From Planctomycetota bacterium (GTDB lineage Bacteria; Planctomycetota; Phycisphaerae; UBA1845; UTPLA1), in contig JACRIM010000027.1 in assembly GCA_016235815.1 (NCBI GenBank), positions 36,421 to 100,420 of the forward strand: a DNA stretch of 64,000 nt. The letters are read 5' to 3'. The notes below the pieces were generated by a model. The model saw nothing but the letters and a program-made list of their open reading frames with translations. It was not told where the DNA came from and did not search any database. Both the position numbers and the translations under genes were made by a program. Below, in pieces: positions 1,812 through 64,000 of this stretch. Within the stretch, counting starts at the first letter, position 1. Each line of letters begins with the position of its first letter.

Positions 1812-2600
1812 TCATAGTTCATGACGGATCGCCCACAGATCGGGGAAGGCCGGTTGGAAGAGGCTGCGCTTGAGGAACTCGACGCCGAGTGAGCCGCCGG
1901 TTCCCTTCTTGTTGCCGATGGTTCGCTCCACCAGCTTGACATGCCGGTAGCGCCATTCCTGCAGGCCTTCGTCGAAGTCGGTCATGGATTCGAAGAGAAT
2001 GGCGACCTCGGGGCGCGATTTGTACAGGCGCAATATCTCGCGCTGCACGTCGACGTTCGGCGCGTTCGATGTTCGCACATCCCGCTGCTTCAATTCAGTG
2101 GGCACCGTCGCGCCGCAGTGACCGAGGAAGTCGTAGAAGTGATCGATGACGCTGCGGTCGTCGAGGCGGGCCTTCAGGCGGGCGTATCCCTGACTGTCCT
2201 TCCCGTACAAGGCTGCGAAGTCGAGATCAGTTCGCTTCTGCCCGAGGGCGAATTCCAACTCGCGGAACTGCGCCGATTGAAAGCCCGACGCTGTCTCCAA
2301 ACGATCACGAAAACTCGAGAAGCTCATCGGCGTCATGGTCTCAAGAATGTCGAGCTGTCCCACCAGCGTCTTCATGACGGTTCGCACGCGCTTAAGGCTG
2401 TGGACGGCACCAAAGAGGTCGTTCCCTGAGAAGTCCCGGTTGATCTTGTCCAACTCGTGCAGCACCAGTTTGAACCAAAGTTCGTAGACCTGGTGAATCA
2501 CGATGAAGAGCATCTCATCATGCTCAGGCGGCTTCGAGCGCGGCTCCTGCAGCTCCAGCATCGCTTCCAATTTGAGATAGTCTGTATAAGTCAGGGCCAC
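1812..2600 (-). CDS. kynA: Tryptophan 2,3-dioxygenase
   Basis: A 262-residue heme dioxygenase that opens the indole ring of L-tryptophan to give N-formylkynurenine. Family hallmarks are HDEMLFIVIHQVYELWFK (about residues 27-44, substrate-binding region), SGFQSAQFRELEF in the middle, and WRYRHVKLVERTIGNKKGTG near the C-terminus, whose His is the expected heme ligand and whose GTGGS lies at the substrate carboxylate. Length fits bacterial TDO (about 260-290). It starts 12 bp after the end of kmo on the same strand, so kmo-kynA form an operon. A kynurenine formamidase is not seen in the window. Confidence 0.95.
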   Translation of the reverse strand: MALTYTDYLKLEAMLELQEPRSKPPEHDEMLFIVIHQVYELWFKLVLHELDKINRDFSGNDLFGAVHSLKRVRTVMKTLVGQLDILETMTPMSFSSFRDRLETASGFQSAQFRELEFALGQKRTDLDFAALYGKDSQGYARLKARLDDRSVIDHFYDFLGHCGATVPTELKQRDVRTSNAPNVDVQREILRLYKSRPEVAILFESMTDFDEGLQEWRYRHVKLVERTIGNKKGTGGSLGVEFLKRSLFQPAFPDLWAIRHEL

Positions 2601-2612
2601 GGACGACTCCCG

Positions 2613-4052
2613 TCATGCAGACGACGGGCTTGCCCGCCGTTTCGATTTGAAGATTACCACCTGCATCGCCACATAGACAATGGTGGCCGCCATGGAGACG
2701 CAGGCGACCAGTCGCTCCGTTGTGAACAAACGCAGCAAGGTCGCCAGTACGACCACGGCGAATAACGCGGAAAACACGAAGACGCGGCGGTCTTGTCGCC
2801 TGGCCCGCGCGACCGCTTCGGCGTAGGGTATGCACGAGAAACTCACCATGCCGTAGAGCGGCCGATACCACGATGGCATCAATGTGTGCAGCGTACGTTC
2901 GACCTTCTTTTTCCATCGAAAGCTTCGGGACGCCGTCTTGTCGCGCATCTCGATGAAGTTTTCGATGGCCAGGTCCGCGAGTGTGTCGCTGTTTTCCTTC
3001 CGTCGCGATTCATAAGCCTCGAAGGCGCGTCGCCAGTCGGGGCCGTGTTGGCGCATGCACTCATCCAGCGCGACCACGTCTTCAAAGGCCGCGTTCATTC
3101 CCTGCCCATAGAAGGGCACAACGGCGTGGGCGGCGTCGCCGACGAGGGCGACCTTTCCTTCGTATTGCCATGGCCGACATCGCACCGTGACCATCGAGCC
3201 GGTCGGATTCGTGCGGAAATCGTCGAGTAGTGTGGGCATGAGCGGCACGGCATCGGGAAACTCCGACTCGAAGAATCGCCGCACATCGTCATCGCCTCGC
3301 AGCGACGCGAAGCTGTCGGGGCCTTCGAATGGGTAAAACAGCGTGCAGGTGAACGAGCCGTCAGGGTTCGGCAGGGCAATCATCATGTAACTTCGTCGCG
3401 GCCAGATGTGCAGGGCGTTTCGTTCCATGCGAGAATCGCCGTTGGGGCCTGGCGGAATCGTCAATTCCTTGTAGCCATGCCGCAGATAGTCCTGTCGATA
3501 GTCAAACCTCTCCAACCGTTGCATCGACTTCCGCACCGCTGAAAAAGCCCCATCCACGCCGATGAGCAGATCGCTCTCCACGACCGTCTCGGCGTTCGTC
3601 GCGGTATGCACCAGTCGCGCCGACGGTCGATCCAAATCAACATCCACGCAACGATGATCGAAGTGTACTCGCACGTTGGGCAGCTTCTGTGCCGCCGCCA
3701 GCGTCACGCTGTTCAACGCCGCCCGCCCGATGGAGTTGATGCACTTCGTCGGGTCTTTGTCATACGGTTGGAAGTGCAACCCCCCGGCGCGATCGTGAAT
3801 CATCCGCCCGCGCATCTGTATCGCGTGCGACAGGATTTCATCCGCCAATCCCACGCGCTGCAGGGCGTCGATCCCGCGCGTCGAAAGGGCCAGATTGATC
3901 GACCGTCCGCCGACGAAGTTGCCCGCGCCAGGGTCGCTGCGCCGCTCGTACAGCGTCACATCCTGCCCCGCGCGACCAAGATACGTAGCCAACAACCCGC
4001 CGGCCAACCCCCCGCCGATCAACGTGATTCGTGGTTTTTCGATCTGCGCCAT
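2613..4052 (-). CDS. kmo: Kynurenine 3-monooxygenase
   Basis: A 479-residue FAD-dependent aromatic hydroxylase that converts kynurenine to 3-hydroxykynurenine with NADPH and oxygen. The N-terminus has the Rossmann motif LIGGGLAGG, then GRSINLALSTRG typical of KMO. The second FAD motif, VALVGDAAHAVVPFYGQGMN, lies around residues 300-320. The C-terminus carries two hydrophobic segments (VFVFSALFAVVVLATLL and VACVSMAATIVYVAMQVV), so the enzyme is probably membrane-attached, as eukaryotic KMO is. It is first in a kmo-kynA operon and divergent from the ankyrin gene. Confidence 0.95.
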   Translation of the reverse strand: MAQIEKPRITLIGGGLAGGLLATYLGRAGQDVTLYERRSDPGAGNFVGGRSINLALSTRGIDALQRVGLADEILSHAIQMRGRMIHDRAGGLHFQPYDKDPTKCINSIGRAALNSVTLAAAQKLPNVRVHFDHRCVDVDLDRPSARLVHTATNAETVVESDLLIGVDGAFSAVRKSMQRLERFDYRQDYLRHGYKELTIPPGPNGDSRMERNALHIWPRRSYMMIALPNPDGSFTCTLFYPFEGPDSFASLRGDDDVRRFFESEFPDAVPLMPTLLDDFRTNPTGSMVTVRCRPWQYEGKVALVGDAAHAVVPFYGQGMNAAFEDVVALDECMRQHGPDWRRAFEAYESRRKENSDTLADLAIENFIEMRDKTASRSFRWKKKVERTLHTLMPSWYRPLYGMVSFSCIPYAEAVARARRQDRRVFVFSALFAVVVLATLLRLFTTERLVACVSMAATIVYVAMQVVIFKSKRRASPSSA

Positions 4053-4185
4053 GACGAGGCGTATTTAACGCGATGGTGCGAGTGCCGCCAACCTGCCCCG
4101 AATTAATCCACCGGAACCAGCGCAGTCGACGAACTCCGTCTTGCAAAAAAGCACTATCATGGTTCAGCATAGAGAGGTAACACGC

Positions 4186-4845
4186 ATGTCAACGTTGGAT
4201 AATGCCCTCGAAGCCGTGAAGAGTGGAAACGTCACGGCCTTCCGCGCCCTCCTCGCCGCCGACCCTGCCCTCGCCGACGCAACCATCGACGGCGGCATGT
4301 CGCTGCTCCTCCTCGCCGTCTTTTTCGGCCATGGCGAGATCATCGATGCGATGCTCGCAACCGGTCGAACGCTGAACATCTACGAAGCCGCCGCACTCGG
4401 CAAACAGGTGGAACTGACCGCCTTCCTCGACGCCGACCCCAGCGCGATTAATGCCTTTTCGTCGTACGGTTTCACGCCGCTTCACCACGCTGCCTACATG
4501 GCCGATGTGTCGACGGTCAGGCTGCTGCTCGATCGCGGCGCTGATGTCAACGCCGTCTCCCGCGATCACATGCAGCTTACGCCTTTGCATCAGGCCGCGG
4601 TCAAGGGCAAGCGCGACATGGTGGCCATGCTGCTGGACCACGGCGCCAACCCCACGCCGCCACACCCGCAGGGCTACACCCCGCTCCACGCGGCGGCCGG
4701 CGGCGGCGATCTCGTTTCGATTCGCCGATTGCTGACCATGGGCGCGGACCCGACGCAAACATTTCAAGGCAAGACCGCGGCCGACATCGCGATGGAAAAG
4801 GGCCACAAAGACGCAGCGGCGGCGATACGGGCGGAGATGGTGTAG
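4186..4845 (+). CDS. Ankyrin-repeat protein
   Basis: A 219-residue protein made almost wholly of ankyrin repeats. Recognisable units include GFTPLHHAAYMADVSTVRLL, LTPLHQAAVKGKRDMVAMLL and GYTPLHAAAGGGDLVSIRRL, with less regular repeats before and after. No signal peptide or other domain is seen, so a cytoplasmic protein-binding role is likely; the partner is unknown. The ATG at 4186 is preceded by AGAGAGG (4171-4177). In-frame upstream starts exist but lack a ribosome-binding site. It lies between kmo and kynU, divergent from the first and convergent with the second (10 bp), so it may have been inserted into a kynurenine cluster. Confidence 0.88.
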   Translation: MSTLDNALEAVKSGNVTAFRALLAADPALADATIDGGMSLLLLAVFFGHGEIIDAMLATGRTLNIYEAAALGKQVELTAFLDADPSAINAFSSYGFTPLHHAAYMADVSTVRLLLDRGADVNAVSRDHMQLTPLHQAAVKGKRDMVAMLLDHGANPTPPHPQGYTPLHAAAGGGDLVSIRRLLTMGADPTQTFQGKTAADIAMEKGHKDAAAAIRAEMV

Positions 4846-4855
4846 TCGGCCGTTC

Positions 4856-6157
4856 CTACCGATGTCGCGCCAGCACCTGTGCGAACCGCCATACATCGTG
4901 AAACGTGTTGTACAGCGGCACCGGGGCGACGCGGATCACGTTAGGTTCGCGGAAGTCCCCCTTTATGCCGGCTTCTTCCAGTTCTTTGAACAGCCCGCGC
5001 GGGTTTTCGTTCACGAGGATCGAGAGCTGACAGCCGCGCTCGGCGGAGCGTTTCGGCGTGATTACCTGATAGCGATTGGACGGCATCTGATCGATCAGGA
5101 ATTGCAGATAGCCCGTGAGCAGTTCCGACTTGGCCCGCAGGCGATCCATGCCGGATTCGTCGAACACATCCAGCGATGCTCGCAGCGGCGCGAGAGAGAG
5201 AATCGGCGGATTGCTGACCTGCCAGCTATCGACCGATGCCACCGGCTTGAAGTCCGGCTCCAGGTGCATGCGAAATCGGGTGGCCGGGTCGTTGCCCCAC
5301 CAGCCGGAGAGGCGAGGCACGTCGAGATCGGGGTTCGCCGCATGCTTCTCATGCACGAAGCAGCCTGCCACCGCGCCGGGGCCCGCGTTCATGTACTTGT
5401 AGTGACACCACACGGCGAAGTCGACCCCCCAATCGTGCAATGCCAGCGGCACGTTTCCGATGGCGTGTGCGAGGTCGAGGCCCAGCGTGCAGCCCTCGCG
5501 CTTGGCCGCGGCTGCAAGCCGACGCATGTCCAACACTTGACCGGTGAAGAAGTTGACGCCGGCCAAAAGCACCAGCGCGAACTGATCGCCGTGGTCCTCA
5601 AGGATGGACTCGATGTCGCCGAGGCGCACGGTCTCCTCGCCCTCGCGCGGGCCGACGATCACGAGGGCGTCGTTGGGTTCGAAGCGGTGGCAACGAATCT
5701 GGCTCTTCACGGCGTATGTGTCCGACGGAAACGCCGGCGCTTCCATGAGGATCTTGTATCGCTGCTTCGTCGGCCGATAGAAGCTGACCATGAGCAGGTG
5801 CAGGTTCACGGTCAAGCTGTTCATGACGACGACTTCATTCGGCCTTGCGCCGACGAGTCGGCCGAGCTTGTCGCGGAAGACCTCGTGGTAGGAATACCAC
5901 GGCGTGTGACCGGTGAAATGCCCATCGACGGCGAGCCGTGCCCAGTCGTCGAGTTCCTGTTGGACGTACGCGGCGGCCCCTTTGGGCATCAAGCCGAGCG
6001 AGTTGCCGCAGAGATAGATGAGCGGCTTTCCATTCGCACCCGTCGGAATATGGAATCGGTCGCGGAGGGACCGCAGCGGGTCCTCGGAGTCCATTCGCAA
6101 CGCAAACGACTCGTCTGCGGAGTATTGGACTGATGCAGTTGCGGTGCCTGTGTTCAT
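4856..6157 (-). CDS. kynU: Kynureninase
   Basis: A 433-residue fold-type I PLP enzyme that cleaves kynurenine or 3-hydroxykynurenine to (3-hydroxy)anthranilate and alanine. Diagnostic stretches are LIYLCGNSLGLMPKGA near the N-terminus, VVMNSLTVNLHLLMVSFYRP, LGLDLAHAIGNVPLALHDWG with the PLP-pyridine Asp, and FAVWCHYKYMNAGPGAVAG with the PLP-binding Lys. The C-terminus GDFREPNVIRVAPVPLYN is also conserved. The ATG at 6157 gives the normal family length; an in-frame extension to 6259 has no family similarity. Same strand as kmo-kynA but separated from them by the ankyrin gene. Confidence 0.95.
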   Translation of the reverse strand: MNTGTATASVQYSADESFALRMDSEDPLRSLRDRFHIPTGANGKPLIYLCGNSLGLMPKGAAAYVQQELDDWARLAVDGHFTGHTPWYSYHEVFRDKLGRLVGARPNEVVVMNSLTVNLHLLMVSFYRPTKQRYKILMEAPAFPSDTYAVKSQIRCHRFEPNDALVIVGPREGEETVRLGDIESILEDHGDQFALVLLAGVNFFTGQVLDMRRLAAAAKREGCTLGLDLAHAIGNVPLALHDWGVDFAVWCHYKYMNAGPGAVAGCFVHEKHAANPDLDVPRLSGWWGNDPATRFRMHLEPDFKPVASVDSWQVSNPPILSLAPLRASLDVFDESGMDRLRAKSELLTGYLQFLIDQMPSNRYQVITPKRSAERGCQLSILVNENPRGLFKELEEAGIKGDFREPNVIRVAPVPLYNTFHDVWRFAQVLARHR

Positions 6158-21062: not shown

Positions 21063-22460
21063 ATGCCGCCGCTCCTGCTTGATCTCATCTATCTCCCTGT
21101 CTTGCTGGGCTTCGTTCCCATTCTGCTTTTCCAACGGTTCGTCAAAGGGAAGAAACGCGGCGGCTGGGCGCAGCGATTTGGCTCAATCCCGTTTCAGTCG
21201 TCCGGCAAACCCGTCATCTGGGTTCACGCCGTGTCGCTCGGCGAGGTCAACGCCACGCGCTCCCTCGTTGCCGAAATCACCATGCGACTGCACGATCACG
21301 ACGTTGTCATTTCCACGACGACCGACACCGGGTACGCCGCCGCCTGCCAGCATTACAGCGCGAGCCGTGTGTTTCGTTATCCGTTGGATTTCTCATTCGT
21401 GGTCCGGCGCGCGTTGAATCGGGTGCGGCCCGCCGCCATCGTGCTGATGGAATTGGAGGTCTGGCCGAACTTCATCGAGATCGCGGCGTCGCGCGGCATC
21501 CCGATCGGCATCGCCAACGGCCGCGTGACCGAGGAAAAGTCGATGCGACGCTTCCGCACGCCGATCATCCGCAGCCTTGCACGGCGAATGTTCTCACGCA
21601 TGGCGTGGGTCGGCGCGCAGGACGAAGCCTATGCAGCGCGATTCCGCGAACTGGGCGTACCCGCCGATCGGGTTCACGTTGCAGGGAATCTAAAGTACGA
21701 CACGGCGAGTGTGAGCGACTCCGTGCCCGGTGCGACGGATTTGGCGGCGGCGATGGGAATCCGCACCGACGCGCCGCTTTTCGTCGCAGGCTCCACCGGT
21801 CCCGGCGAAGAGGAACTGCTGCTCACGGTATATCGCGACGTTTTGCAATCGCACCCTACAACACAACTCGCGATTATCCCGCGAAAGCCCGAGCGATTCG
21901 ACGACGTGGCCAGGCTGATTGAATCGAGCGGATTCGCGTGTGTGCGTCGGAGTCATTCGGATCAGACTCGCGATCCCAATCAGAACCGCGACCCCAATCA
22001 GAGCCGCGACCGAGATCAGAGCCGCGACCCCAATCAGAGCCGCGACCGTCAGGGAGCGGGTTCTGTGACAACGCCAGGCGCGACGGCGGGGCAGGTTGTA
22101 TTCCTCGGCGACACGATGGGCGAACTCCGAAAGTTCTATTCTCTCGCCACAGTTGTTTTCGTGGGGCGCAGCCTCGTCCCGATGGGTGGCTCCGACGTGA
22201 TGGAAGTCGCGGGGCTGGGCCGGGCCATGTGCTTCGGGCCCTTTATGGAGAACTTCGCCGACGCAGCAGAAAAACTGCTCTCGGCCACCGCGGCCGTTCA
22301 AGTGAGTACGTCGGAGGAACTCGCATTAACGCTGAATGAACTGCATGAGAATCAAACGCGGCGCGAGCAAATGGGGCGCGCGGCGCAGGACGTAGTCCGG
22401 CAGAACGCAGGTGCGACGGCGCGAACAGTGGACCTTCTCGTGAACGCGATGCGCGGTTGA
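21063..22460 (+). CDS. waaA: 3-deoxy-D-manno-octulosonic acid (Kdo) transferase with in-frame repeat insertion
   Basis: A 465-residue GT30 enzyme that adds Kdo from CMP-Kdo to lipid A precursor at the inner membrane. The N-terminal membrane anchor (LLLDLIYLPVLLGFVPILLF), IWVHAVSLGEVNATRSLV, the acceptor loop STTTDTGYAAA, LMELEVWPNFIE, and the C-terminal FLGDTMGELRKFYSLATVVFVGRSL with the FGPFMENF stretch are all characteristic. Residues about 300-330 are a repeat-encoded insertion (RDPNQ/RDRDQ units) lying in a linker just before the conserved FLGDTMGEL; the normal family length is about 420-430, so the insertion accounts for the excess. It implies an LPS-type outer membrane. Confidence 0.9.
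   Translation: MPPLLLDLIYLPVLLGFVPILLFQRFVKGKKRGGWAQRFGSIPFQSSGKPVIWVHAVSLGEVNATRSLVAEITMRLHDHDVVISTTTDTGYAAACQHYSASRVFRYPLDFSFVVRRALNRVRPAAIVLMELEVWPNFIEIAASRGIPIGIANGRVTEEKSMRRFRTPIIRSLARRMFSRMAWVGAQDEAYAARFRELGVPADRVHVAGNLKYDTASVSDSVPGATDLAAAMGIRTDAPLFVAGSTGPGEEELLLTVYRDVLQSHPTTQLAIIPRKPERFDDVARLIESSGFACVRRSHSDQTRDPNQNRDPNQSRDRDQSRDPNQSRDRQGAGSVTTPGATAGQVVFLGDTMGELRKFYSLATVVFVGRSLVPMGGSDVMEVAGLGRAMCFGPFMENFADAAEKLLSATAAVQVSTSEELALTLNELHENQTRREQMGRAAQDVVRQNAGATARTVDLLVNAMRG
21961..22062. repeat. Five 18-bp tandem units plus tail within waaA
   Basis: Five consecutive 18-bp units run from 21961 to 22050, consensus ATCAGAGCCGCGACCCCA; the third and fifth end in GAG and GTC instead of CCA. The tail AGGGAGCGGGTT follows (22051-22062). 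Because 18 is a multiple of three the frame is kept, giving repeated RDPNQ(S/N) peptides. The last unit with its tail resembles a GC-rich dispersed repeat I associate with planctomycete genomes. Confidence 0.85.
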
Positions 22461-43977: not shown

Positions 43978-45876
43978 ATGTTTTCAACACGGAAGAAACA
44001 ATCGTTCATGATCGCGATCGCCCTCATGGCCGCGCTCCCGCTGCAGGCCGCCCGAGCCGGAGACCTGAAGGAGACCCTTCAACTGGTCCCCGATGACACC
44101 TGGGGATTCGTCGTCGCCAAGTCGCTCAGCAACGTCGACGCCAAAGCCGCTCAGTTGAAGGAGATGTTCAACCTTCCATTTGAAGGCCCCATCAGCGACA
44201 TGGCCCTCGGCATGTTGCAGCTCGGCGATTCCATCGATAAGGACAGCCCCGTCTGCGCCATCATGCTCGACCCGAACAAGTATGGCGGTCAGGAAAAATC
44301 GACGGCCATTCTTGTTCCAACGAAAGACCCGAAGGCCCTGCTTGAAAAGCTCTCAGCCGAAGAGGGCGCCGACGGCATCAGTAAGTGCACCGTCATGGGC
44401 GAGCCTGCATTTGCCGCCGTGAAGGGCAAGACCGTCATCCTCAGCCCAAGTGAAGAATGCGCCGTCAAGATTCTAAAGACCAAGAAGTCGGTCGGCGACA
44501 GCATCGTCGATTCCCGAATGGGCGTGATGAGCCAGTCCGACCTTTACATCAGCATCTCGCTCCGCTCCATCCTCGCCGCCTACAAAGAAATGATCATGCC
44601 GATGATGCAGATGATGGCCGGCTCATCGGGCATCGGCGCGGGCGATATCGAGAAGATATTCAAAATCCTCGACGAGATTCACGCCCTTGAGATCTCGGTC
44701 TCGCTGGAAAAGTCGGGCTTCGCAATGATCGTTCTTACCGTTCCGCACGAGGGCAGCGATCTTCAGGGCCTGCTCGCCGATCAGAAGAATTCAAGTGAAT
44801 CGGTCCTTTCGTTGCTCCCGAAGGAAAAATTCATGTTCGCCTTCGGCGGCACGGCCACCCAGAGCGAGCACTCCGAGAAGTTTGGAAACGAGCACCCCGT
44901 TTCCGGAATACTCAAAGGCCTCACCCATGGCGCCGAACTGGATCAGGATGCACTCAACACGCTCGATGCCGAAATCATCAAACTCCAGAAATCAATCAAG
45001 CGATACGCCCTGAGCGCCAGCGCACTGCCCAAAGGCGACTCCATGATCGGCGCGGCCCTCGTCGCCGAAGTCGCCGACTCCAAGGAGTTCCTCAGCGGCG
45101 TCCGCAAGTTCTATAAAGCCTTCATGACCGTTTCTGAAGATGAAGATTTCGGTGCGATCAAGAAGTGCATCGTTCACACCGCCGACGCCGAATCGGCCGC
45201 CGGTAAGAAGCTCGACACCATCAAGGTCGACTTCGCCTCCATGCCCGATTCCGACCCCGACGACATCAAGAAAATGGAAAAAGTCATCGGCAAAGAGTTC
45301 ATCATTCGCTTCGGCGCGGTGGATGACAAGCACGTCGCCCTGTCCTTCGGCGGCGGAACCAAGCGATACGAGACGATCTGCGGCGCGGTGAAATCGGGCG
45401 AGAAGCTCGGCGCCGACGCCGGCATCACCGATGCCTCGGCCCATCTGCCCAGCCCGCGGTCCGGCGAAATGTTCGCCGCCGTGGACACGATCATGACCAT
45501 CGTCAGCGAGGTCGCCAAGGCCGCCGGCGAGGAGCCGTTCCCCTTCGAAATTCCGACGATCAATGCCCCCGTCGCCGCCTCCACCTCCGTGCAGGACAAG
45601 ATCGGCCGCTTCGACTTGATGATCCCCATGAAGCTGATCAAGGCCGTTAAGGAAGCCTACGACAAGAGTGCGGCCGCCTCCGCCGACGAAGATTTCGACG
45701 AAGACGACGCCGGCAAGGACAAGCCCGCCAAGGCCAAGGCAAAGCCCGCCAAGGAGAAGGAAGACTCAGCCGACTCCGACGACGACGAGGAAGCCCCCAA
45801 GGCCAAGGCCGACTCAAAGGCCAAGCCCAAAGCCAAGAAGCCGGAGAAGAAAAGCGACGAAGAGTCCGACGAGTAA
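43978..45876 (+). CDS. Exported protein of unknown function with charged C-terminal tail
   Basis: A 632-residue secreted protein with a signal peptide (SFMIAIALMAALPLQAARA) and a strong ribosome-binding site, AGGAGA before ATG 43978. The body is helix/strand mixed without known motifs, similar at the start to the previous protein. The last ~75 residues are low-complexity Lys/Ala/Asp/Glu/Pro (AKAKPAKEKEDSADSDDDEE), a disordered polyampholyte tail. A good terminator follows at 45906. Possibly a periplasmic or surface structural protein; function unknown. Confidence 0.68.
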   Translation: MFSTRKKQSFMIAIALMAALPLQAARAGDLKETLQLVPDDTWGFVVAKSLSNVDAKAAQLKEMFNLPFEGPISDMALGMLQLGDSIDKDSPVCAIMLDPNKYGGQEKSTAILVPTKDPKALLEKLSAEEGADGISKCTVMGEPAFAAVKGKTVILSPSEECAVKILKTKKSVGDSIVDSRMGVMSQSDLYISISLRSILAAYKEMIMPMMQMMAGSSGIGAGDIEKIFKILDEIHALEISVSLEKSGFAMIVLTVPHEGSDLQGLLADQKNSSESVLSLLPKEKFMFAFGGTATQSEHSEKFGNEHPVSGILKGLTHGAELDQDALNTLDAEIIKLQKSIKRYALSASALPKGDSMIGAALVAEVADSKEFLSGVRKFYKAFMTVSEDEDFGAIKKCIVHTADAESAAGKKLDTIKVDFASMPDSDPDDIKKMEKVIGKEFIIRFGAVDDKHVALSFGGGTKRYETICGAVKSGEKLGADAGITDASAHLPSPRSGEMFAAVDTIMTIVSEVAKAAGEEPFPFEIPTINAPVAASTSVQDKIGRFDLMIPMKLIKAVKEAYDKSAAASADEDFDEDDAGKDKPAKAKAKPAKEKEDSADSDDDEEAPKAKADSKAKPKAKKPEKKSDEESDE

Positions 45877-46576: not shown

Positions 46577-47140
46577 CTAGTCGGGCGGGGTCTCCGTGCG
46601 TGAGTGGGGCGGGGCCTCCGTGCTTGAGTGGGGCGGGCCTCCGTGCCCGCCTCGGCTCGGAAGCAAATGATCAAATTCTGAGTGAACCCCCAGCCAGTCA
46701 TAAGATTCAATATCAGCCCACCTTTTGAAGGGGTTGTTCAAGATATAAATTAGCTTTTCTTCGAACTCATTGGCATCACGAACAATTCGATCAAATGTCT
46801 CGTCTTGCCAGAGGCATCTCAGGCGACCGAACTGACGTTGCATTCGATTTGCCGTGAACGACTTCCAACTATGAAGAATTTTCTCCAGTTGCCAATCCTC
46901 GAACGGCTGAACCAGCGCGTGACAATGATCGTTCATCACGACCCATGCAAATAAGTCATACCGAGAGTTTTCGAACTGGCGCATGGCCGAAACAACAAGT
47001 GTGCGTTCTTCGGATCGCAGTTCATGTTGGCCGGGCATGAGCCTCCATGTCACGAAATAGGTCGCACCATCAATTCGAAAATGGGGGAGGCGTCGACGAT
47101 ACCCATTAAACCAAAGGCCATGACAATCCGGTGTTTCCAT
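46577..47140 (-). mobile_element. REP-associated tyrosine transposase (RAYT, IS200-like Y1)
   Basis: A gene of 187 residues for a single-strand transposase of the TnpA/RAYT class. Hallmarks: YFVTWRL at the start of the fold, the HUH-type VVMNDHCHALVQPFEDWQLE with the metal-binding histidines, and the tyrosine region KLIYILNNPFKRWADIESY. I take the ATG at 47140, since further upstream the frame reads through the flanking hairpin. The C-terminus is translated from the repeat at 46580-46651 (GGHGGPPHSSTEAPP). Repeat copies on both sides and another at 59600-59630 fit a RAYT that acts on these hairpins. There are no inverted terminal repeats of an ordinary insertion sequence. Confidence 0.85.
46580..46651. 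repeat. Three tandem copies of the RAYT-associated repeat
   Basis: Three successive units of about 24 bp with core GGGGCGGGGCCTCCGTGC or a close variant. The last one is complete and forms the hairpin GGCGGGC-CTCCGT-GCCCGCC. It overlaps the 3' end of the transposase frame. Confidence 0.8.
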
Positions 47141-56245: not shown

Positions 56246-56713
56246 CGATTTCCCCCGAAACTTCCGCCCACTCCCGGCTCCATGCCGAACAATGGGAGAC
56301 GATGGTTTGATATCCAATACCATTTGGCCCTCTGCAATCGGATAACCAAAAGGCATACAAGGACTTGCAAATCGCGCCTCCGCGAAGGCCTGTTTTCGGA
56401 CCGCCTAAAGGACGACGACGGGTTCTCGGCCGCGTTGACAGTAAGGTGCGTTGACCGTAATCTTCCCCCGTCTTGCCTTCGGGCCAGACTCGCTCTAATC
56501 AGCGACGTTCGATCCAAAAGAGACAGGCCGAAGAAGCGAAAGCGACGGCGGTCAGAAGGCATCCCGCACGCGGTGGGGTGCTTTAGCCTCGGGACGAACC
56601 CCCTATGCAGCCGCGTCCAGTCCGACCCTGAGAGGTCGATCCACAGATTGCCCCGAATTCGGGACGATTTCGTGAGTGCAGCTGCCGTACATAGCAGGTA
56701 GGATCACCACCAT
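56246..56713. other. 468-bp spacer with no gene upstream of tRNA-Gln
   Basis: No frame with coding character is found. It holds a good promoter (56435-56463) directed to the tRNA and about 250 bp of leader-like sequence. A non-coding RNA could lie in 56470-56700, but I cannot identify a known one. Confidence 0.4.
56435..56463 (+). promoter_or_regulatory. Candidate sigma-70 promoter
   Basis: TTGACA (56435-56440), 17-bp spacer, TAATCT (56458-56463). The -35 is perfect; the -10 keeps three of six consensus bases including the important T/A/T positions. It points towards tRNA-Gln 250 bp downstream. Confidence 0.55.
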
Positions 56714-56784
56714 TACCCGGTAGTGTAATGGTAGCACAGCAGGTTTTGGTCCTGCTTGTCGAGGTTCGAATCCTCGCCGGGTAG
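56714..56784 (+). tRNA. tRNA-Gln (anticodon TTG)
   Basis: 71 nt without encoded CCA. Acceptor TACCCGG pairs with CCGGGTA, discriminator G. Anticodon arm GCAGG-TTTTGGT-CCTGC gives TTG at 34-36. T arm CGAGG-TTCGAAT-CCTCG is perfect. The D arm GTGTAATGGTAGCAC is normal for Gln. Its cognate GlnRS is encoded at 47191-48936. Confidence 0.95.
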
Positions 56785-56824
56785 TTCCCTAGTGTCGCAT
56801 GTGCGACGCGCTCGCGGAGTGTTT

Positions 56825-59661: not shown

Positions 59662-60231
59662 ATGAAACTCATCGTCGGTCTCGGCAACCCCGGTGCGCAA
59701 TACGTGCACACGCGGCATAACGTGGGGTTCCGCGTGGTCGAGTTGCTCTGCGACCGATGGAAGCTGGGAAACTGGAAGGAGAAATTCAGCGGCCTCGTGG
59801 CCGACGGTCAGGCTTGCGGGGAGCGAATCGTCCTGCTCCGGCCCATGACCTACATGAACGTGAGCGGCAAAAGCGTCTCCGCCGCCGCACAGTTCTTCCA
59901 GTGCCCGATGTCGGACGTGCTGATCGTGTCCGACGACGTGGATCTGCCGCTGGGTAAGCTGCGATTGCGGGCCACCGGAACCGCCGGCGGCCAGCGAGGC
60001 CTCGACGATGTCCTGGCCATGCTCGCAACGCTCGATGTGCCTCGGCTGCGAGTCGGCGTCGGCCGACCGGCGCGAGGCAGCGTGGCCGATTATGTTCTGT
60101 CGCCGTTCGCCGCAAGCGAACGCGACGAGGTTGAAGAGGAAATCACGCGGGCGGCCGATGCCGTCGAAGTGTGGGTGACCAAGGGCATCCACGCCGCGAT
60201 GAACGATACGAATCGAGACTCGAAGGATTGA
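59662..60231 (+). CDS. pth: Peptidyl-tRNA hydrolase
   Basis: A 189-residue enzyme releasing tRNA from stalled peptidyl-tRNA. Hallmarks: [20 protein letters not shown] with the catalytic His (RHNVGF), [15 protein letters not shown] and [20 protein letters not shown]. The usual HNGLKS core is replaced by GGQRGLDD, a known variant in some phyla. GAGAGGTG lies 12 bases before the ATG. Confidence 0.93.
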
Positions 60232-61608: not shown

Positions 61609-62157
61609 ATGAAACTGCTCTTACGAAAAGACATTCCAAAGCTCGGCCTCTGCGGAGACGTCGTCGACGTCTCCACCGGCTATGCTCGAAATTACCTCCT
61701 GCCTCACCACCTGGCGTTGGAGCCGACCAAGTCCAATCTCAAGGCCATTGAGAAGGACAAGATCGTTGCCGCCCAGGAACGCGAGCGAATCCGCGGCGTC
61801 CTTCGCCAGACGGCCTCCCGCCTGGCCGGCGCCGAGGTCACCATCGCCGCCGCCTGCACGCCCGACGGCCACCTCTATGGCTCCGTTGGTCCGCGCGAGA
61901 TTTCACATGCCCTGATGGAAGAGGGACACTCGGTCCACGCCGATCAGGTTAAGATGTCGCATAATCTCAAGGAAGTCGGCTCCACCGAAGTGCCCATCGT
62001 CCTCGCGGATGACATCCGGGCAACCGTCAAGGTGTGGGTCGTCGCAGAGAAGCGCGCCGGCGAGTTTGAACCGGAACCGGCGAAGGAAGGTGGCACGGAT
62101 GTCCCAGGCAGCAATCCAGACGCCCAACCGTCCGACGCCGTCGGCACGGCCAACTGA
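61609..62157 (+). CDS. rplI: 50S ribosomal protein L9
   Basis: A 182-residue L9. The N-terminal domain has the family signature KLGLCGDVVDVSTGYARNYL followed by LPHHLALEPTKSN; the rest is the connecting helix and C-domain (GHLYGSVGPREISHALMEEG). Start ATG at 61609. Its last 59 bases overlap the start of dnaB in another frame. Confidence 0.94.
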   Translation: MKLLLRKDIPKLGLCGDVVDVSTGYARNYLLPHHLALEPTKSNLKAIEKDKIVAAQERERIRGVLRQTASRLAGAEVTIAAACTPDGHLYGSVGPREISHALMEEGHSVHADQVKMSHNLKEVGSTEVPIVLADDIRATVKVWVVAEKRAGEFEPEPAKEGGTDVPGSNPDAQPSDAVGTAN

Positions 62158-63631
62158 TCCCATCGCATCCGGCCGGCTCCCTCCGCAGGATTTGGAAGCG
62201 GAGGCGAGCCTGCTCGGCGCGATGCTTCTCGATCGTGATTCCATCGGTCAAGTCGTGCAGCTCATCCCCCGGGATGAGTCCGCGCGCTTCTACCGTCCCG
62301 ACCATCGCCTCCTCTACGAAGTCCTCGTCGACATCTACGACGCGAACAAGCCCATCGACATCATCGTGCTCGAGGACGAACTCCGCCGTCGCGGTCTCCT
62401 CGACGAAGTCGGCGGCCGACAATACTTGATCGACCTCTCCGAATCTGTTCCCTCCACCGCCAACAGCGAACACTATGCCCGCATCGTCCGCGACAAGTCG
62501 ATGCTCCGCGACTTGATTCAATGCACCAGCGAGATCATGCAGTCGGCCTACAACCAGGTCGAATCCGCCGTGCAGGTTCTCGACGATGCCGAGAAAGCCC
62601 TCTTCGAAGTCACCGAACAGCGCGTCAGCAATCAGGCCGTCTCCCTCCGCGACTTTCTCGACGAAACGTTCAAGCAAATCGAATCCTTCGAAGAAGGCAC
62701 GCTCTCCGGCGTACCCACCGGCTTTACCGAACTAGACTCACTGCTCGGCGGCATGCAGTACGGCGACTTCATCGTCATCGCCGCCCGGCCCAGCATGGGA
62801 AAGACGGCGCTGGCCCTTTCAATGTTGGAAGCCGTCGGCATCTCCGAACAAATGCCCGCCGCCTTTTTCTCGATGGAAATGAGCAAGCTGCAGATCGCCC
62901 AACGCATGCTCTGCTCGCGTGCCCAGGTCGATATGCACAAGATGCGCCACGCCCGCCTCTCTGATGAGGAGATCACCAAGCTCCAACTCGCCTGCGGCAA
63001 CATGCGCACCTGCCCGGTTTTTGTCGATGACACACCCGGCATGAGCGTCATGGAACTCCGCGCCAAGTCGCGCCGTCTGAAAATGCTCCACGACATAAAG
63101 GTCATCTTCGTGGACTACCTGCAGCTCATGTATGATCGCGCCGCCGCGAAAGACAGCCGTCAGAATGAAATCGCCTCGATCAGCCGCGGCCTCAAGGCCC
63201 TCGCCCGCGAGTTGAACATCCCCGTCGTCGCCATGGCCCAGCTCAATCGACAGGTCGAAGGCCGCGAAGGCAATCGCCCCCGAATGAGCGATCTCCGCGA
63301 ATCCGGCGCCATCGAGCAGGACGCCGACGTGGTCATGCTCCTGCACCGGGAGGAGTACTACCTCAGCAAAAAGCGCGCCACCAGCCCGGCCGCCGCCGAG
63401 CAATTCGAAAAATCAAAGGGCAAGGCCGAGATCATCGTCGCCAAGCAGCGCAACGGCCCGACCGGCGACATCGAAATCCACTTCAACCCGCACTTCACCC
63501 GCTTCGACAACGCCGCCCCCGGCTACATCAGCGACGATGCCGGCTACGGCAACCGCGGCTACGCCGAAGACCCCGGCATCGCCTTTAACCCCTCCGGGCC
63601 GGGCCTCGCCGACGAAGCCGCGCCGTTTTAG
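62099..63631 (+). CDS. dnaB: Replicative DNA helicase DnaB
   Basis: A 510-residue hexameric helicase. The N-domain starts LPPQDLEAEASLLGAMLLDR; the RecA-like domain has Walker A ARPSMGKTALALSM, FFSMEMSKLQIAQRMLC, Walker B VIFVDYLQLM, and the arginine/sensor parts AQLNRQVEGREGNRPRMSDL, RESGAIEQDADVVMLLHREE. The C-terminus IEIHFNPHFTRFDN is usual. Start ATG 62099 has AAGGAAGG eight bases ahead and lies inside rplI. The C-terminal ~40 residues are a Gly/Asp-rich extension. Confidence 0.96.
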   Translation: MSQAAIQTPNRPTPSARPTDPIASGRLPPQDLEAEASLLGAMLLDRDSIGQVVQLIPRDESARFYRPDHRLLYEVLVDIYDANKPIDIIVLEDELRRRGLLDEVGGRQYLIDLSESVPSTANSEHYARIVRDKSMLRDLIQCTSEIMQSAYNQVESAVQVLDDAEKALFEVTEQRVSNQAVSLRDFLDETFKQIESFEEGTLSGVPTGFTELDSLLGGMQYGDFIVIAARPSMGKTALALSMLEAVGISEQMPAAFFSMEMSKLQIAQRMLCSRAQVDMHKMRHARLSDEEITKLQLACGNMRTCPVFVDDTPGMSVMELRAKSRRLKMLHDIKVIFVDYLQLMYDRAAAKDSRQNEIASISRGLKALARELNIPVVAMAQLNRQVEGREGNRPRMSDLRESGAIEQDADVVMLLHREEYYLSKKRATSPAAAEQFEKSKGKAEIIVAKQRNGPTGDIEIHFNPHFTRFDNAAPGYISDDAGYGNRGYAEDPGIAFNPSGPGLADEAAPF

Positions 63632-63693: not shown

Positions 63694-64000
63694 CGGGGCG
63701 TAGCTCAGCCTGGTCAGAGCGGTCGCCGCGGCGACAGGTCGGGAACTAAGCCACGCTGTTCAAGGAAACAATAGTCCGACGACTGTGAGCGCGTCGGTTT
63801 GGAATAAGTAAATAGCAGCTACGGGGCGTAGCTCAGCCTGGTCAGAGCGGTCGCCGCGGCGACAGGTCGGGAACTAAGCCACGCTGTTCAAGAAAACAAT
63901 AGTCCGACGACTGTGAGCGCGTCGGTTTGGAATAAGTAAATAGCAGCTACGGGGCGTAGCTCAGCCTGGTCAGAGCGGTCGCCGCGGCGACAGGTCGGGA
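63694..64000. repeat. 128-bp tandem repeat with tRNA-like 5' segment
   Basis: Units begin at 63695, 63823 and 63951 (period exactly 128); the array runs off the window. Units 1 and 2 differ at one base (G at 63765, A at 63893). Each unit begins GGGGCGTAGCTCAGCCTGGT plus CAGAGC, the 5' acceptor strand and D arm of a tRNA. Its 3' half (T arm, closing CGCCCC) is absent; instead follow a palindrome GTCGCCGCGGCGAC and a hairpin CCGACG-N10-CGTCGG. Across unit junctions AGCTAC and GTAGCT form a further 6-bp stem. No open frame is seen. Confidence 0.85.

Follow-up and report, generated by a model that had tools for sequence, protein, structure and literature searches.

tRNA genes are docking points for mobile DNA. 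Integrons carry attC cassette arrays in which successive cargo genes, toxin-antitoxin pairs among them, are each closed by a hairpin-bearing site. No element that puts a single palindrome in the place of the anticodon arm of a tRNA gene is known to us. Genetic elements are reportedly integrated in tRNA genes by tyrosine integrases, a subject associated with Williams (2002).

The locus that we describe here is an array of tRNA 5' halves at the end of a window of 64,000 nucleotides (the whole stretch of DNA that was analyzed), in which a perfect 14-nt palindrome, GTCGCCGCGGCGAC (hereafter P), takes the position of the anticodon arm. Our search of the literature (open PMC papers; titles and the starts of abstracts) found no description of palindrome-marked tRNA halves beside GIY-YIG genes. 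Like the tRNA elements of tyrosine integrases, the P-marked loci have an intact tRNA on one side and a partial tRNA on the other; unlike them, they have a cargo that is mostly <350 bp and a foreign palindrome in the anticodon position. One of them, L179, resembles an integron in that successive cargo genes are each closed by a hairpin-bearing site, whereas the sites are here tRNA halves with one palindrome, the host site is a tRNA gene and L179 is the single locus of this kind.

A precedent for the amplification of a tRNA gene together with a GIY-YIG gene is provided by SegB of phage T6. SegB is a free-standing GIY-YIG homing endonuclease encoded beside tRNA genes and reported to cut inside tRNA genes (PMC13096335); SegB and recombination genes were reported to be necessary for the tandem amplification of a 718-bp unit of tRNA-Tyr plus segB, and the paper draws attention to the microhomology that the 5' end of the tRNA has with the 3' end of segB. 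The loci analyzed here share with SegB a GIY-YIG nuclease gene beside tRNA genes. They differ from it in lying on bacterial chromosomes, in the UPF0213-like nuclease of 78-79 aa, in the local tRNA halves with a palindrome in the anticodon position, and in that cutting is here only predicted. R.Eco29kI, according to PMC1952068, is a GIY-YIG restriction enzyme with the site CCGCGG, and this recognition palindrome is the centre of P, a sharing that may be due to chance. Eco29kI is not among the best 50 structural matches listed for the nuclease, and we treat the reading of P as a restriction site as a lead only.

The array and its counterparts in the same genome

The last 307 bases of the window, whose end is also the end of contig C8 (100420 bp), form a tandem repeat (63694-64000) with a period of 128 bp, 2.4 copies and 99% matches according to TRF; the array runs into the contig edge, and 2.4 copies is thus the count up to the end of C8. 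Units 1 (63694-63821) and 2 (63822-63949), both on the forward strand like all features of the array given below, show a single difference, G at position 63765 being replaced by A in unit 2, and unit 3 (63950-64000), of which the contig end leaves the first 51 nt, is identical in 51 of 51 nt. The first 28 nt of every unit (63694-63721, 63822-63849 and 63950-63977) correspond to the acceptor 5' strand, the D arm and nt 26 of a tRNA, and match the 5' half of tRNA-Pro(CGG) of the family member G005 at 28 of 28 positions. These results confirm the tandem 128-bp array with a tRNA 5' half in every unit that the first-pass annotation had reported. That annotation had also proposed a search for the unit in related genomes, where the 28-nt piece indeed recurs, with seven matches at 100%, five of which were typed (four Pro(CGG) and one Pro(TGG)).

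What had been overlooked is that the next 14 nt of each unit (63722-63735, 63850-63863 and 63978-63991) are P. The palindrome occupies the place of the 17-nt anticodon arm and is followed, as the arm is in intact tRNAs, by AGGTCG; the remainder of unit 1 (63736-63821) consists of a tRNA-like stub, AGGTCGG, and a spacer that has no match in Rfam. The T arm and the 3' acceptor are absent from the window units, as had been stated before, and ARAGORN calls no tRNA in the array, which does not supply both halves of a foldable cloverleaf. An inverted repeat, AGCTACG-GGG-CGTAGCT, spans the junction of units 1 and 2 (63817-63833) and is found again at 63945-63961. These junction repeats were flagged as terminator-like on the reverse strand (2 found versus 0.7 +/- 0.8 in shuffled sequences).

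The first reading had further noted two conserved stems in each unit. These stems are not a sign of constraint, because near-identical copies cannot show it, and the fold of the unit is no better than that of shuffled sequences (z -0.61; 53 of 200 shuffles as good or better). Rfam reported nothing on the array, and in evalue mode the array region gave one chance-level hit, located away from the array. Upstream, the nearest gene, which lies outside the element, encodes a replicative DNA helicase (dnaB-like; 62099-63631, forward strand; the name was given by inspection, and the start was picked by eye in a frame that at its longest opens at 62009). No promoter-like site was found upstream of the array, no GIY-YIG match is present within the 64-kb window, and the tRNA expected at the end of the array is not seen within it. 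The sole tRNA call of ARAGORN in the window is a tRNA-Gln(TTG) at 56713-56785, and TRF detected other tandem repeats, with periods of 18-24 bp, at 21961-22047, 45714-45762, 46579-46646 and 60043-60089.

Two other P-marked loci are present in the same genome (G000). On contig C27, a P-marked 5' half is identical at 29 of 29 positions to the adjoining intact tRNA-Pro(GGG), which begins 364 bp after the start of P; between them lies a GIY-YIG match interrupted by stop codons in each of the three frames. On contig C4, the order is an intact tRNA-Pro(TGG), a 79-aa GIY-YIG ORF, a P with a central TG and a 3' half that is identical over 29 nt to the intact tRNA upstream. Across the C27, C4 and C8 loci, Rfam in gathering mode detected nothing but the two ordinary tRNAs. 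The 5' half of the array differs from both the C27 and the C4 tRNA and thus represents a third tRNA-Pro case. When a 75-nt Pro(CGG) query was compared with the assembly (95.48% complete), only Pro(TGG), Pro(GGG) and half-tRNA pieces were found. A Pro(CGG) gene is therefore expected past the contig end. About 100 bp downstream of the P-flanked tRNA-Pro(GGG) of C27 there is a phage-type tyrosine recombinase gene (PF00589; L007, reverse strand 4328-5593).

P-marked tRNA halves in other genomes

A scan of 84,980 species genomes with the pattern GCGGTCGCCNNGGCGACAGGTCG returned 33 matches at 29 loci, mostly in Verrucomicrobiota and Planctomycetota, plus one genome each of Elusimicrobium, Berkelbacterium and Acidimicrobiaceae. 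Inspection by eye placed all of these loci except L072, that of Acidimicrobiaceae, in the context of a tRNA half. The pattern leaves the loop centre free, and GC is found there in 32 of the 33 matches. A version with a relaxed tail gave 52 matches in 34 of the 83 genomes of one Verrucomicrobiota family, the control giving 0, and an exact match was present in 2 of 288 genomes of a sample of the phylum Verrucomicrobiota. Allowing at most two mismatches, matches were found in 4 of 392 Planctomycetota genomes, with G000 as the only exact one. Scanning a whole phylum with such a pattern is a weak means of finding new loci. In the window's own family (at most one mismatch), a tRNA-linked P is present in 3 of 17 genomes (G000, G002 and G013), counted among the matches to which a locus was given.

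The fetched loci were pooled to give 75 P sites, sites that share the same 65-bp context being counted once. Automatic typing near intact tRNAs assigned 16 of them to the 5' half-P type and 37 to the P-3' half type; the thresholds left 22 sites untyped, among them the three units of the window, near which there is no tRNA, sites whose halves are decayed or that lie at a contig edge, and two loci, L072 and L133, seemingly unrelated to tRNA. The sites were collected through P or its neighbours, so that the way of sampling accounts in part for the constancy of P; P does vary at C4, in G002 and G013, and at L234.

The sequences show a plan common to many loci: the local tRNA is present as an intact gene and also as one or two halves that have P in the anticodon position, and the intact gene usually has a GIY-YIG gene next to it, which may itself be intact or decayed. 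The fullest plan is 5' half-P-spacer, intact tRNA, GIY-YIG gene and P-3' half, and P lies on both flanks of tRNA and GIY-YIG in this way at L079, L088, L142, L181 and L083/L132; L073 has the same order with a second P that lacks a 3' half. The GIY-YIG match is instead located between the 5' half-P and the tRNA at L076, L063 and C27. It lies between the tRNA and P, intact or decayed, in 26 of the 30 P-3' halves at tRNA-Pro and in none of the six at tRNA-Val, and a GIY-YIG match is present within 1.5 kb of 39 of the 53 typed sites. The bases right after P track the local tRNA (AGGTCG, AGGCCG, AAGTCG, AGATCG or AGGTCC). Since the halves and the bases after P are thus local, only P and the cargo would have been imported. 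By eye, the 5' halves of L132, L089 and L181 carry an insert of about 30 bp in the D-loop, forming hairpins that differ in sequence yet pair.

At L179 (G574:C12, reverse strand 1935-5300), a tRNA-Pro(GGG) is followed by three successive cargo-P-3' half units whose cargo, toxin-antitoxin-like, replaces the GIY-YIG gene: DUF6036, PemK/MazF with MazE, and DUF5615 with DUF433. A related genome (L180) yielded the first of these units and no other as far as the end of its contig. These units with non-GIY cargo suggest that the halves may be cassette sites.

Arrays of halves also occur elsewhere. Two 93-bp spacer-P-3' half units follow a tRNA-Val(CAC) at L135, before a GIY-YIG match; two units, one with a mismatch in P, follow a tRNA-Pro(CGG) at L234, 77 bp apart; and L073 contains one full and one decayed 5' half unit. 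The repeated part at these three loci consists of the tRNA half, P and a short spacer, the outcome to be expected if repeated halves recombined unequally.

P is not restricted to these contexts. In the Verrucomicrobiota family of G517 (the 83 genomes mentioned above), the bare 14-mer occurs at 404 sites versus 10 for the reversed control, and versus the 52 matches of the tRNA-type pattern. Among 40 of these dispersed loci that were inspected, seven have a recognised tRNA half (five of the seven with a GIY-YIG match) and 33 have neither. Thus, P is not private to the cassette. In G506 (Elusimicrobium), two similar non-tRNA contexts, L130 and L131, hold P in the loop of long inverted repeats, and positions 560-638 of L130 (reverse strand) match the c-di-GMP-I-UAU riboswitch above the Rfam cut-off. 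Five non-tRNA P loci submitted to Rfam in evalue mode gave one riboswitch and two sub-threshold matches.

The nuclease and its possible movement between tRNA genes

The domain PF01541 was detected in all three proteins scanned, which come from cassettes at other loci than the window. Residues Y5, Y16, R26 and E50, which we take to be the catalytic residues of GIY-YIG, are invariant in the 26 aligned sequences. The protein, of 78-79 aa, is UPF0213-like, and its fold is predicted with confidence (pLDDT 95). In a fold search against the PDB, the UPF0213 protein 1zg2 was the sole match at E <= 0.001, with Slx1 and I-TevI next; by sequence, the closest structures are 1zg2 and 1ywl. The nuclease thus resembles the UPF0213/Slx1-type GIY-YIG proteins (PDB 1zg2, 1ywl and 4xlg) in fold as well as in sequence. 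By its substitution pattern (median dN/dS of 0.12 over the 39 of 190 GIY-YIG pairs that are below synonymous saturation), the nuclease is under purifying selection. Of the 36 GIY-YIG stretches inspected, 13 contain an ORF whose stop codon, TAG or TAA, belongs to the piece of tRNA D arm that immediately precedes P; ten have no intact frame by pattern, and several of the remainder look frameshifted.

A search for homologues of the nuclease found 581, and 44 of the 120 that were fetched read through P as RSPxRQ, a fraction favoured by the query, which itself bore an RSPxRQ tail. A protein-coding reason for P was considered and rejected, as other homologues read P in other frames (SGRRGDR, AVAAATGRG). 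The conservation is therefore in the DNA. One GIY-YIG protein compared with plasmid and phage collections gave no match at E <= 1e-8, and a tree of the GIY-YIG sequences, which are too short for this purpose, did not resolve their relationships.

The GIY-YIG genes of L061, at a tRNA-Pro(TGG), and L231, at a tRNA-Pro(CGG), are nearly alike (pN 0.04, pS 0.34), and the tRNA and the 3' half are in each case the locus's own. Two genomes of the window's family, G002 and G013, share a tRNA-Ala locus downstream of which they are collinear, with 86.7% over 3079 bp and 83.9% over 988; at this locus they have complementary remnants: P-spacer-tRNA-Ala in G013, and GIY-YIG-P-3' half in G002, where no tRNA was called.

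Recoding of the intact tRNA was seen for one anticodon. The anticodon stem of Pro(TGG) is altered at 8 of 13 P-bearing loci versus 3 of 28 P-free loci (Fisher p 0.0014, uncorrected for kinship). For Pro(GGG) and Val(CAC), with few P-free loci to compare, P-bearing and P-free loci mostly share the same stem. A homing cassette that protects itself would be expected to carry a recoded tRNA, which the Pro(TGG) loci fit and the Pro(GGG) and Val(CAC) loci mostly do not.

Possible origins of the array

More than a tRNA fragment, the array is a local instance of something that recurs at tRNA genes. With moderate confidence, we interpret these tandem copies of a tRNA-Pro 5' half plus P as the left border, in multiple copies, of a mobile cassette; this cassette would insert at tRNA genes, and its predicted driver is a small GIY-YIG endonuclease. 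The nuclease would cut either a tRNA gene or P, and repair of the broken gene from the cassette would leave an intact tRNA flanked on the outside by the local halves with their P. If copies of the 5' half, or copies of the 3' half, then recombined with each other, this could delete one side, giving remnants with a 5' or a 3' half only, or expand one side, giving arrays. By the precedent of phage SegB, we infer that the array was amplified as a border of such a tRNA-targeting cassette. Past the contig end we would expect the tRNA-Pro(CGG) in intact form and, probably, a GIY-YIG gene and a P-3' half behind it. We file the feature as a variant of the tRNA-associated GIY-YIG homing elements, its new trait being the exchange of the anticodon arm for a palindrome. 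Among the explanations offered by the first-pass annotation, an attachment or recombination site amplified from a tRNA comes closest, as the unit resembles the 5' border of a recurrent tRNA-associated cassette and arrays of borders exist elsewhere; overall, that interpretation stands in part.

A bolder alternative, which we put forward tentatively and rate as rather unlikely, is that tRNA genes serve as a docking site in bacteria of several phyla, that a 14-bp palindrome takes over from the anticodon arm in a copy of the local tRNA, that cassettes with a nuclease or a toxin-antitoxin cargo are captured at the resulting half-tRNA-P site, before or after the living tRNA gene, and that bare sites multiply into arrays such as this one. 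It is rather unlikely, though to be taken seriously, that P plus the tRNA half is an integron-like recombination site of cassettes, at which a putative recombinase acting in trans inserts cargo at tRNA genes, GIY-YIG being merely the commonest cargo. The three units behind one tRNA at L179 and the first of them at L180, the combination of local halves with a recurrent P, and the tyrosine recombinase gene adjoining the C27 copy would all fit such a site; yet non-GIY cargo came to light at a single locus, and 26 of the 30 P-3' sites at tRNA-Pro carry a GIY-YIG match. The abundance of the bare 14-mer, together with the longer palindromes that enclose P at L138, at L140, at position 1593 of L219 (a region shared with L234) and in the Elusimicrobium hairpins, raises the question of whether a dispersed REP-like palindrome has, as P, exchanged its own hairpin for that of the anticodon arm, with GIY-YIG as a bystander. 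We consider this improbable, since GIY-YIG matches accompany the copies with tRNA halves at 5 of 7 loci but none of the 33 other copies, and P with tRNA halves spans four phyla.

Integrated elements commonly leave partial copies of tRNA genes, as stated in PMC9897764, and an integrase gene adjoins C27, but it is very improbable that the array is an ordinary remnant of a tyrosine-integrase element or prophage integrated in a tRNA gene: a displaced half would keep the anticodon arm of the host, whereas the typed halves carry P (though they were found through P), and the gaps between tRNA and P, <350 bp in all but one of the 53 typed sites, are too short for an integrase. We give hardly any weight to the idea that each unit gives rise to a functional RNA, tRNA-like or small. 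On the one hand, the unit has a tRNA-like 5' domain with two hairpins, and the D-loop inserts of about 30 nt in L132 and L089 form, by eye, differing but pairable hairpins. On the other hand, there is no fold signal and no Rfam match, the loop dinucleotide is fixed as in a DNA motif, and the window units are without T arm and 3' acceptor; the processed tRNA-like non-coding RNA proposed earlier is accordingly unsupported. Just as little weight goes to an assembly artefact at the contig end, also raised before. The array does stop exactly there, but its units differ by one base, a 5' half-P lies inside contig C27, other arrays of halves lie inside contigs of other genomes, and the P-spacer-tRNA-Ala module is present in G013, a genome in one contig.

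If the interpretation as a multiplied border of a GIY-YIG cassette is true, these would be selfish elements of about 300 bp that split an essential gene yet supply an intact copy of it, a counterpart in nature of a rescue gene drive. The recurrent half-tRNA repeats would then be explained as well, as would the common tRNA-derived tail on small nucleases that is seen in the 44 read-through homologues. The analysis yields a defined DNA site and a 79-aa nuclease that are open to direct testing. In IMG/VR, the single match to P (L090, reverse strand 1509-1577) is a complete tRNA-like gene whose anticodon arm is GTCGCCTAGGCGAC, with a loop of 4 nt and no anticodon.
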